A DNA stretch of 64,000 bases from a bacterium (GTDB lineage Bacteria; Hinthialibacterota; Hinthialibacteria; OLB16): assembly GCA_022072055.1 (NCBI GenBank), contig JAJVIK010000023.1:1-64000 (forward strand), in the 5' to 3' direction. The translations under genes and the position numbers were made by a program. Below are positions 31,820-35,477 of the stretch, piece by piece; the stretch's first letter is position 1; the number at the start of each line of letters is the position of its first letter. The notes below the pieces were generated by a model. That model saw only the letters and a list, made by a program, of their open reading frames with translations. It was not told the origin of the DNA and did not search any database.

Positions 31820-32107
31820 GCCGGAGCGCCAACGTCGGGCGCCAAGCCACGCTTGCCCCGGCAGAAAGAACGCCATGAGGATCGAGGCGGCCACGCGCAG
31901 GCCCCATTTCCAATCATCCGCCTCGGTCCAGGACCAAGCGAAGAACAAGCCGATCAACGCGCTGTTGGACAACCAAGCCAAGCCGACCTGGTCCATCTCC
32001 GGAAGAGGGCGCGCCCTTGACAGGGCGATCCCCGCCAGGACGGCAAGGGACGTAACCACCAGCGGGCTGAAGTAGAGGAACGCGTCGAGCTCGGATAGTT
32101 CACCCAT
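31712..32107 (-). CDS. Small multi-pass membrane protein, uncharacterised
   Basis: 131 aa with about four hydrophobic segments; start overlaps the stop of the 32100 gene by 8 bp; 3' end overlaps the convergent Na/Pi gene by 108 bp. Confidence 0.6.
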   Translation of the reverse strand: MGELSELDAFLYFSPLVVTSLAVLAGIALSRARPLPEMDQVGLAWLSNSALIGLFFAWSWTEADDWKWGLRVAASILMAFFLPGQAWLGARRWRSGSRGWVTLVLLGALLCFQLPILVVLLFRVFDSGPIR

Positions 32108-35100
32108 GGACAGTGGAAAGAATCCCCTTGTAATACAGAAGGTCCCGCCGCATTTCGCCGGAAAGTCCGGGGAGATGGCTTGCGGCCTCCAGGACTGAAA
32201 GCGCCTCAGCGGAGCAATTCTTCTCCATGAGGCACTGCGCGAGCATTAACGAGGCGTAGCCCTTGTCCTCTGAGGGGATGTCCGCCTCGCAGGCGAACCG
32301 GAAGTGGGGAATGGCTTCGTCGTATCCATTGCGCTCGAAGGCCTCATTCCCAAGGGCGATGGCCTGACGGGCGTCCGGCGCGCGCTGGCCGCCATTCCCG
32401 CCGATCGCCACGATCGCCTCGGACGCCGGCGGGATCTCGGCTTCGCGAGATTTCTCAAGCATGCCCTCGGAGCGCTTGATTTCAACCGGTCGCGGCCCCG
32501 CCGGAATCTCTTGGCTGGGAGGCTCGGACTTGGTCGCCGAAGGAGGCTCGACCTTTTCACTCAAGACCGCGAAATAATCCTCGGCGGTCCCCAAGGCGTG
32601 AGTGGCCGCTTGTCGGGCGGATTCCCGGACCACTCCGGTCACCGCCTCCTCGGCCACCTGACGCGCCACTTGCTCGGCGACAATCTGCGCGATTTCGGTC
32701 ACGACCATCTGGGCGGCCTGGATCGCGGTCTTGCGCGCGACCGCCTCGGCGGAATGGGCGACGACTTCCTCGGCGGCGGCGCGCGCGGCCTGTTCGGCGA
32801 CACTCCGCGCCATTTCGCGCGCGGCCTCCGCGGCCATCTGTTCGGCGACCTCGCGCGCCACCTGCATCGCCACCTCCCGCGCGGTGTCCGAGGCCGCGAG
32901 AGCGACCACCTCATGGGCCGCCTCCGTCGCGGCCTTCCGAGCCACCTCCACCGAAAAAGTCCGGGCCTGCTCCTCGGCGGTGGCGCGCGCCACCTCGGCG
33001 GCGGAGGCTTCGGCCACCTGTTCAGCCGCCTGTTTGCCCACCTCGCGCGCGACCTCGCGGGCCTTGCGCGTGGCGGCCTCGCGGACGGCGTCCCGGGCAA
33101 ACTCCCGGGCCGCTTCCTCGGCGATGCCGCGCGCGGTGGCGCGGACCGTTTCCTCAACCACCTGGCCCGCCACCTCGCGGGCAATCGCCTCGGTGTGGCG
33201 GTCCACCATTTCACCGACCAGCTCCTCCGCGACATACTGGGAAATGCGGGCGGAAGCCTTTTCCACAACCTCATCGGCGGTCAGGCGCGCGACTTCCTCG
33301 GCGATCCCTCCGGCGCGCTCGCGAGCAACCGCCTCAATCGCCTTGATCGCGGCTTCCTGAACCAACGGGCGGGCCGCTTCCTCTGAAAGGGTTCGGGCCA
33401 ACTCGGCGGCTTGGCTTGAAGCGATCCCTCGAACCGCTTCCTCGGCGGCGGCGCGCGCGCTTTCAGTCGCCACTTGCTCCGCGAGCTCGCGAGCGACTGT
33501 CTCCGCGACCTGCTCAGCGGTGGTCCGGGCCACCTTGCGCGCCACATTGGCGGCCCCCTTGCGCGCGATTTCCTCGGCGGCGGCCATCGCCGCCTCGCGC
33601 GCCACCTCGGCGGCCACTTGTTCGGTCAATTCCCTGGCCGCCTCATGCGCTACCCTCTCGGTGACCTCGCGCGACATCTTGCGCGCGGTTTCGGTGGCGA
33701 TCTCTCGCGCCGCCTCCGCCGCGGTGTCGGTGGCGACACGATTCGCGGTCTCTCGCGCCACTGATGCGGCCACCTCTTCCACCGCCGCCACCGCCGCCTC
33801 GGCGGCGACGCGCTTGGCGGTGTCCACCGCGACCGCCTCAGCCACCTCGGCGGCGGATTTCTCGGCGATGCGTCCGGCCACATTCGTGGCCGCTGAGATC
33901 GCGACCTTGTGCGCGATCTCTCGTGCGATCCCTTCCGAGGCGCCTCCGGCAACCTCCGCCGCCACCGCGCGGGCGGTTTCTCCCGCAACCTGCTCGGCGG
34001 TTCGCGTGGCCACCTCGACTGCTTCCAGTTCGGCGATTTCAGTTGCTCGCGCTTGAGCCGCCCGCGCCGAAACATCGCGCGCCGTTTCGCCCGCGACCCG
34101 AATCACCACTTCATGCGCCGCGGCCGTGGCCGCCTCACGGACCGCTTCCTCGGCGATCCCGCGCACCACCTCCTCGGCGATCCGCCTGGCCGCGGCCTCG
34201 GTGGCCTCGCGGGCCGCCTCTACAGCGACTTGCTCGGCCACCGCCGAGGCAAGGGCGGGCGCGATCTCTTTGGTTTTTTCCACCGCCGCCTTGTCGGCCA
34301 CTTCCCTCGCGATGGCTTCGGCGACGCGCTGGGCGGCCTTGTCCGCGACCGAGCGCGCGACCCCTCCCGCCACCTGCTCGGCGGTCTCGCGGGCCACCTC
34401 GGCGGCGTGGGTTCGAGCGATTTGTCCCGCTTCCTTGGCCGCCACTCCCTCGGCAACGCCAAAAGCGGTCTCCTCGGCGACCTTCCGCGCGACATCGCCC
34501 GCGACTCGCGCGGCGATCTCCTCGGATAGGACGCCAGCCACTTCGGAGGCGGTCTTTCGGGCTTGGAATTCCGCGACCCCCTGGGTGGTTTCGCGCGCGG
34601 ACTCCTCCGCCAGCGCGGTGGCGATCTCTCGAGCCGCGATCTCCGCGACCCGCGCGGCCACGCGCTGAGCGGTCTCCTCGGCGGTCTTCTGGGCCACCTC
34701 GCGCGCGGTCGCCTCGCTGATGGCGTTGGAAACCGAGCGCGCCACCTCCGCGGCGGTGCGTTCGGCGATCTCCCGCGCGCTCTCCTCGGCGGTCTTGCCG
34801 GCGATCTCGCGCGCGGCGAGGGTCGCGGTCTTCGAGGCGGTTTCCTCGGCGGTCTTCTCCGCGATTTCGGCGGCGGTCTTCTCGCTGATCGCTTGAGCGA
34901 CCTGGAGAGCGACCACTTTGGCGGTGCTTTCGGCGACCTCCGAGGCGGCCTGGTCGGCTTCGCGAGTGATCGGGGCCGGGTGCGCGGACGATTGCAGCGC
35001 GACCACGTTGGAGGGAGTGGGAGTCGGCTCCGCCGTTGGGGCCGTTTCCGTCGGGGCGTACCCCTCAAGGAGCGAGGAAAGGTCCACGGGCGAGGACTCC

Positions 35101-35477
35101 TCGGGCGCGGCCTCCTGAACCGTCCCTCCCGGGGTCGATAGGTCGTCCGGATGAATGCCTGTGGTGGGAATCTTGAGTTCCTGGGCCCAGCCCAGCGCGG
35201 CCTCCGAAAGGGGGATCTTCCGCGCCTGGGCATACAACTCCACCAGATTTCCCCCCTTGTGTCCCGGGCATTGGCCGTAGGAGCACCGGAAAGTCCTCTT
35301 GGACACATCGATGGTGAGGGTTCGGATGACCTCGTCCCGATGGATCGGGCAGAAGGAGCGCAGCTGAGCTCCGAAGCGCTGCACCTTGTCCACTCGGAAC
35401 CCGATCTTCTTGAGCGCGACCTCCGGATCGAGTTGGAGGCAGACCGCATCCAGGAGTTTCTGTCCCTTGGGTGTCAT
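32100..35477 (-). CDS. CHC2-type zinc-finger / long Ala-tetrad-repeat / TPR-like protein (uncharacterised)
   Basis: N-term SFCPIHRDEVIRTLTIDVSKRTFRCSYGQCPGHKGGNLVELYAQARKIPLSEAALGWAQEL (DnaG-like CHC2); residues about 173-960 are xAxx tetrads in one phase; C-term ARQAIALGNEAFERNGYDEAIPHFRFACEADIPSEDKGYASLMLAQCLMEKNCSAEALSVLEAA (TPR-like). Confidence 0.85.
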   Translation of the reverse strand: MTPKGQKLLDAVCLQLDPEVALKKIGFRVDKVQRFGAQLRSFCPIHRDEVIRTLTIDVSKRTFRCSYGQCPGHKGGNLVELYAQARKIPLSEAALGWAQELKIPTTGIHPDDLSTPGGTVQEAAPEESSPVDLSSLLEGYAPTETAPTAEPTPTPSNVVALQSSAHPAPITREADQAASEVAESTAKVVALQVAQAISEKTAAEIAEKTAEETASKTATLAAREIAGKTAEESAREIAERTAAEVARSVSNAISEATAREVAQKTAEETAQRVAARVAEIAAREIATALAEESARETTQGVAEFQARKTASEVAGVLSEEIAARVAGDVARKVAEETAFGVAEGVAAKEAGQIARTHAAEVARETAEQVAGGVARSVADKAAQRVAEAIAREVADKAAVEKTKEIAPALASAVAEQVAVEAAREATEAAARRIAEEVVRGIAEEAVREAATAAAHEVVIRVAGETARDVSARAAQARATEIAELEAVEVATRTAEQVAGETARAVAAEVAGGASEGIAREIAHKVAISAATNVAGRIAEKSAAEVAEAVAVDTAKRVAAEAAVAAVEEVAASVARETANRVATDTAAEAAREIATETARKMSREVTERVAHEAARELTEQVAAEVAREAAMAAAEEIARKGAANVARKVARTTAEQVAETVARELAEQVATESARAAAEEAVRGIASSQAAELARTLSEEAARPLVQEAAIKAIEAVARERAGGIAEEVARLTADEVVEKASARISQYVAEELVGEMVDRHTEAIAREVAGQVVEETVRATARGIAEEAAREFARDAVREAATRKAREVAREVGKQAAEQVAEASAAEVARATAEEQARTFSVEVARKAATEAAHEVVALAASDTAREVAMQVAREVAEQMAAEAAREMARSVAEQAARAAAEEVVAHSAEAVARKTAIQAAQMVVTEIAQIVAEQVARQVAEEAVTGVVRESARQAATHALGTAEDYFAVLSEKVEPPSATKSEPPSQEIPAGPRPVEIKRSEGMLEKSREAEIPPASEAIVAIGGNGGQRAPDARQAIALGNEAFERNGYDEAIPHFRFACEADIPSEDKGYASLMLAQCLMEKNCSAEALSVLEAASHLPGLSGEMRRDLLYYKGILSTVHG
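32598..34961 (-). repeat. 12-bp-period coding repeat encoding about 197 four-residue units [VIT]-A-x-[EKRQ]
   Basis: Manual parse; residue 173 (EADQ) and residue 949 (VVRE) are both 1 mod 4, so the phase is preserved across 194 units. Confidence 0.88.

Follow-up and report, generated by a model that had tools for sequence, protein, structure and literature searches.

A predicted DnaG-type zinc domain at the head of a tetrad-repeat rod with a TPR tail in Hinthialibacterota

What is the function of a protein that joins a primase-like zinc domain to a long four-residue repeat and a TPR-like tail? The question is raised by a gene in a 64,000-nucleotide stretch of a Hinthialibacterota genome (contig JAJVIK010000023.1, positions 1 to 64,000), called the window below. 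An earlier note described the product as a CHC2-like head followed by a Pro/Thr linker, a tetrad-repeat rod and a TPR-like tail, considered this a candidate new architecture, and proposed a nucleic-acid or protein tether or scaffold spanning a long distance, not a primase.

The rod gene, its neighbours and its counterpart in a second genus

The rod gene, an ORF at 32100-35477(-) with the boundaries first assigned to it, starts with ATG and encodes 1125 amino acids (Table 1). It shares a 4-nt ATGA overlap with nadD and overlaps the downstream gene for a 131-residue protein by 8 nt, which makes its translation within an operon with nadD and this small membrane-protein gene probable. The order nadD, then this gene, recurs in Ca. 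Hinthialibacteria OLB16 and in genomes G004 and G005, and genes of the head family described below follow nadD in G000, G001, G004 and G005. A homologue of the 131-residue protein (29% identity) is also found downstream of the OLB16 copy. A phage or plasmid origin of the rod gene was rejected, as tblastn gave no match in the phage or plasmid collection.

Table 1. Features of the rod gene product and of the adjoining genes (window coordinates)
Feature	Coordinates	Strand	Basis
nadD (nicotinate-nucleotide adenylyltransferase)	35474..36112	-	NCBIfam NF000840 above cut-off; directly upstream of rod gene
Predicted DnaG-type CHC2 zinc domain, residues 1-104	35166..35477	-	PDB profile matches, AlphaFold and Foldseek
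Putative Zn-ligand motif C43-P-I-H46-x18-C65-x4-C70	35268..35351	-	Nine-member alignment; family rows
Pro/Thr/Glu-rich linker, residues 105-178	34944..35165	-	Composition scan
Tetrad rod, residues 179-966, 197 tetrads, consensus [RE]-[EKQ]-[VATI]-A	32580..34943	-	One unbroken register; collinear in OLB16
Second linker, Pro/Ser-rich, residues 967-1036	32370..32579	-	Composition; AlphaFold coil
C-terminal TPR pair, residues 1037-1123	32109..32369	-	Pfam TPR_16, AlphaFold, Foldseek
Small hydrophobic protein of 131 aa, probable membrane	31712..32107	-	Downstream of rod gene; ORF list

Two further features of the window were noted. An ORF of 323 residues at 37272-38243(-), with no Pfam or NCBIfam match, adjoins an HDOD-domain gene. 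A gene for a DnaB-type replicative helicase (57033-58532, +) is located beside that of a TPR_12 protein (58432-59940, -); it is 21 kb away from the rod gene and has no evident link to it.

In the second genus, OLB16, the gene is collinear with that of the window and is broken by a few single-base frameshifts in its assembly. Rod residues 590-905 (316 residues) align with the OLB16 sequence without gaps at 57.6% identity. The sole clear change in rod length, 20 residues or five tetrads, is at the rod start; the first linker is longer in the OLB16 orthologue. Over the 316-residue stretch, identity at third codon positions is 32%, with a dN of 0.37 and a dS of 4.8, giving a dN/dS of about 0.08 that is only rough since dS is near saturation. 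The Ala position of the tetrad is 81% conserved between the genera, compared with 44-53% at the other three positions. These values point to purifying selection on the rod gene between the two genera. An assembly or frameshift artefact, a danger that the earlier note had itself raised, was rejected for the window in view of the collinear homologue and the low dN/dS. Two sister families in the class, f2 and f5, have nadD and no rod gene, so the gene is dispensable. The assembly of a third genome of the same family (G002) contains neither the rod gene nor nadD, and its lack of the gene is therefore uninformative.

The zinc head and the family that carries it

The Pfam model of the DnaG zinc domain, PF01807, scores 14.1 bits against residues 31-103 of the window protein, under its cut-off of 24.9 bits, which is exceeded by two relatives (27.7 and 25.3 bits). 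A profile of nine family sequences searched against the PDB matched the Aquifex primase (2au3, E 2.5e-4) and the zinc domain of the B. stearothermophilus primase (1d0q, E 6.7e-3) with all four Zn ligands aligned; C43, H46, C65 and C70 are invariant in the nine-member alignment. An AlphaFold model of the head, built from the window and public loci (pLDDT 88.5, pTM 0.81), retrieved the same two entries in a Foldseek search of the PDB (E 3.2e-4 and 6.7e-4, probability 1.00) and nothing else below E 0.001. Since profile and model led to the same two primases, and to no other significant PDB match, the head is predicted to be a true DnaG-type CHC2 zinc domain in both fold and Zn ligands. The CHC2-like region reported earlier, residues 42-100 or so, was thus correctly placed and too narrowly drawn, the domain extending from residue 1 to about 104.

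As had been noticed from the sequence, the other parts of a primase do not follow. Pfam and NCBIfam revealed no Toprim match in the window protein, in which linker and rod come after residue 104, and TPR takes the place of a helicase-binding domain at the C-terminus. With no TOPRIM and a normal DnaG gene elsewhere in the genome (contig 6), a primase was rejected.

A first search with residues 1-116 gave matches in 7 of 61 genomes, the weakest of which (G035) was an ordinary DnaG. A direct scan of genome contigs with the single N-terminus produced no match, and a five-row alignment used as the query did. Profile A1, whose rows include the window protein, scores that protein at 149 bits and DnaG-like matches at about 20-34 bits. 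The family signature is C-P-[IVL]-H-x18-C-x4-C. Of 52 family rows, 44 show the C-x2-H-x18-C-x4-C spacing, whereas C-x2-C takes the place of C-x4-C in eight of nine DnaG genes that were checked. In a tree of 57 rows the DnaG sequences form a clade with 100/100 support, set off by a long branch of 1.95 changes per column; many other forks are not resolved. Judged by these sequence features, the head marks a putative family, undescribed and distinct from DnaG, in several bacterial lineages. Literature searches on CHC2 with tetratricopeptide, DnaG zinc domain with TPR, and four-residue helical repeats found no relevant paper.

Family members were found in Sumerlaeota (often two to five copies per genome), Hinthialibacterota and others. 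The relatives of G025 are Sumerlaeota (by records L070, L071, L073 and L074), and most of these genomes contain at least two copies. In the family members examined the zinc head begins the protein or lies close to its N-terminus, with an interaction or signalling module (TPR, DnaA-type AAA+ or GGDEF) behind it. Sumerlaeota paralogue classes largely track architecture in the 57-row tree, as defined by Pfam on representatives: CHC2 with TPR and a DnaA-type ATPase (about 1360-2150 aa), with long TPR arrays (about 2400-3100 aa) or with short TPR (about 430-600 aa), and stand-alone heads (about 130-140 aa).

Several individual relatives deserve mention. CHC2-TPR proteins that end in a DnaA-type ATPase are encoded in Sumerlaeota-type genomes at L015:3958-10356(-), L056:4919-9007(+) and L063:3190-7305(-). 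Their ATPase part matches PF00308 with E 2e-60 to 4e-66 and is without DNA-binding domain IV; the fusion is apparently undescribed. Genome G182 encodes a fusion of the head with GGDEF (E 1e-5) at L128:7883-8743(-). The longest protein seen, of 3820 residues (L067:4664-16126, +), is a weak family member with 28 bits to the profile. The product of L057:4241-6601(-) has two beta-rich C-terminal segments after its TPR part (residues about 500-786), PilZ-like by eye and with no Pfam match.

The short CHC2-TPR proteins of G051, G100 and G004 end in KIKISYV or KRISFL. A C-terminal [KR]xI[SA][YF][LV] was observed in short relatives at L018:5525-6331, L126:5608-6426, L020:3217-4257 and in the L021 region, where the form NRIAYL lies downstream. 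This tail is perhaps a docking peptide; it is absent from the window protein. In G051, G100 and G004 the relatives precede the gene of an AAA_22 ATPase (a Pfam match), which we take to be ExeA-like from the start of the protein. Two MshEN/T2SSE ATPases come after it in G051 and two similar-looking genes, compared by their first residues, in G100. Co-encoding with pilus or secretion ATPase genes is thus seen in G051, suggested in G100 and partial in G004, and is absent at the window locus, where the rod gene has neither an ExeA nor a PilB gene beside it. The ExeA-like genes of the window's genome are on other contigs, one of them at an apparent polysaccharide locus (by eye), and a tie between them and the rod gene was rejected on this ground. 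Modules linked to c-di-GMP (MshEN, GGDEF) recur around the family. The three genomes hint that the short CHC2-TPR relatives might work with an ExeA-like and a filament-type ATPase, as helpers of a surface machine of the type IV filament or MSHA kind that such ATPases drive.

The tetrad rod and the TPR tail

Behind the head, the Pro/Thr linker and the tetrad-repeat rod of the original description were both recovered. The register does not slip across the 197 tetrads. Position 4 is Ala in 159 of them; position 1 is mostly R or E, position 2 is E, A, K, Q or R, and position 3 is V, A, T or I. Ala has an autocorrelation of 0.43 at lag 4, where shuffled sequences average 0.00 (sd 0.036), and the power spectrum of the rod has a single sharp peak at a period of 4.00, with nothing at 3.5, 3.6, 3.67 or 3.75. 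Coiled coils are recognized by a hydrophobic period of 3.5 to 3.75, and the rod falls outside this range. A canonical alpha-helix turns by 100 degrees per residue, so that a stripe repeated every four residues would shift by 40 degrees per tetrad and complete a full circle every 36 residues; on this geometry it cannot provide the fixed seam that a normal coiled coil has.

Compared with register-preserving shuffles, opposite charges at i and i+4 are in excess, with 47 cases of E followed by R (shuffles 30.7, sd 3.8) and 40 of R followed by E (30.8, sd 3.9). Pairs of like charge are depleted, with 25 for E-E (48.6, sd 4.3) and 13 for R-R (23.5, sd 3.4). This pattern argues for self-stabilisation of a helix. 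The net charge of the rod, calculated from composition, is about -43. For residues 590-1125, the segment to which modelling with OLB16 rows was confined because MAFFT misplaced the full-length alignment with the OLB16 pieces, AlphaFold returned helices of 106, 31, 123 and 111 residues, with low confidence in the rod (block pLDDT about 35-65), and a coil in the second linker with low pLDDT over most of its length. We infer that the rod is in an extended helical state. It had no match among PDB sequences, and a search across the class for its relatives recovered only its own other half and the OLB16 orthologue. Within the family, then, the tetrad rod appears to be special to this pair of genera. 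The claim of a new architecture accordingly needs dividing: it stands for the rod, while the combination of CHC2 and TPR without primase domains is spread over several lineages.

The TPR-like character proposed for the C-terminus was confirmed by several routes. The tail of the window protein matches TPR_16 with E 1.5e-5, under its cut-off, and that of the OLB16 orthologue exceeds the TPR_19 cut-off (26.9 vs 25 bits). The tail is modelled with confidence (pLDDT about 90), its best Foldseek match in the PDB being the idealised TPR 1na3 (TMt 0.82), and has the 34-residue helix-turn-helix repeats that define TPR.

Proposed role and comparison with known systems

A zinc head, a TPR tail, flexible linkers and a spacer of conserved length make up the anatomy of a tether. 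We consider it fairly probable that the window protein is a non-enzymatic cytoplasmic tether between the ligand of its head and the partner of its TPR. The DnaG-derived zinc head would dock on one partner, the flexible linker and extended helical rod would keep the other end away, and the TPR pair would dock on a second protein, giving the molecule a bridging role. A cytoplasmic location is suggested by the sequence, in which neither a signal peptide nor a membrane segment is evident. The rod could span at most 118 nm, the length of 788 residues in a single straight alpha-helix with a rise of 1.5 A per residue. The earlier reading of a tether or scaffold and not a primase is supported, as is the absence of the catalytic parts of a primase; binding of nucleic acid and the long distance that the protein was said to span stay conjectural, AlphaFold making the rod helical only at low confidence.

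A scaffold for replication or the nucleoid anchored on DNA or RNA would be a special case of the tether: the head would have kept the binding of single-stranded nucleic acid known from DnaG, and TPR would recruit a replication or transcription protein. The DnaG fold and ligands of the head are consistent with this, as is the DnaA-type ATPase domain (E 4e-66) that ends one Sumerlaeota paralogue class. However, the DnaA-like part stops after the ATPase domain, most of the family has [RK][ED]xxxR[TS]L where DnaG has EKTPSF after the first ligand pair, replication genes are not among the neighbours of the relatives, and the rod has a net charge of about -43, which makes this version rather unlikely. 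Less likely still is a self-assembling structural filament, in which the Ala/Val stripes of many rods would pack laterally to build a cytoskeletal fibre or lattice, decorated by the heads and tails. Positions 3 and 4, half of the rod, do form a strict Ala/Val/Ile/Thr stripe, which exceeds the hydrophobicity of a classical charged single helix, but a period of 4.00 without power at 3.5, 3.67 or 3.75 fits no standard coiled coil, and solved fibre proteins have no sequence match to the rod. A decaying or low-complexity expansion without function, caused by repeat slippage in a GC-rich gene, would agree with the biased composition and the OLB16 frameshifts, but is highly improbable given the near-saturated dS beside a dN of 0.37, the register and length kept across genera, and the short arrays of 2-3 copies that are all a tandem-repeat finder sees, which indicate no recent expansion.

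A primase zinc domain may have been recruited outside replication as a general N-terminal head of scaffold and signalling proteins in several lineages, and the rod that it caps in Hinthialibacterota, with an exact four-residue period outside known coiled-coil classes, may be a molecular ruler of up to about 100 nm; we put this forward tentatively. The DnaG zinc domain is here seen as a recurrent head apart from primase. Such heads are mostly below the Pfam cut-off and so easily missed in annotation; further members can be searched for with the family profile and the C-x4-C signature. The rod, as a natural array of unusual periodicity, offers a test case for long rigid spacers.

The head shares with the DnaG zinc-binding domain (CHC2, PF01807; 1d0q, 2au3) a common fold, the order of elements, the C-x2-H...C...C ligands and the N-terminal position. 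It differs by C-x4-C instead of C-x2-C in the second ligand pair, by loss of the EKTPSF motif, by the lack of TOPRIM and helicase-binding domains in the window protein, and by the separate, fully supported clade of the DnaG rows. Sumerlaeota CHC2-TPR proteins (L015-L017, L055, L056 and others) have the same zinc head with TPR repeats behind it; unlike the window protein, they carry long TPR arrays, in some cases together with a DnaA-type ATPase, and no tetrad rod.

In MSHA-type pili the TPR protein MshN is encoded beside MshM, an ExeA-type ATPase, and MshE. The G051 and G100 relatives resemble this arrangement in pairing a TPR protein with ExeA-like and MshEN/T2SSE-type ATPases. In contrast to MshN, the window protein has an N-terminal zinc head, no evident membrane segment and no adjoining filament genes.

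The rod is set apart from coiled coils by its period of 4.00, outside their range. Single alpha-helix (ER/K) spacers combine Glu/Arg complementarity at i and i+4 with a long extended helix. The rod has the same complementarity, and a long extended helix is expected of it; its distinguishing features are the strict four-residue register and the Ala, Val, Ile or Thr that occupy half of its positions.
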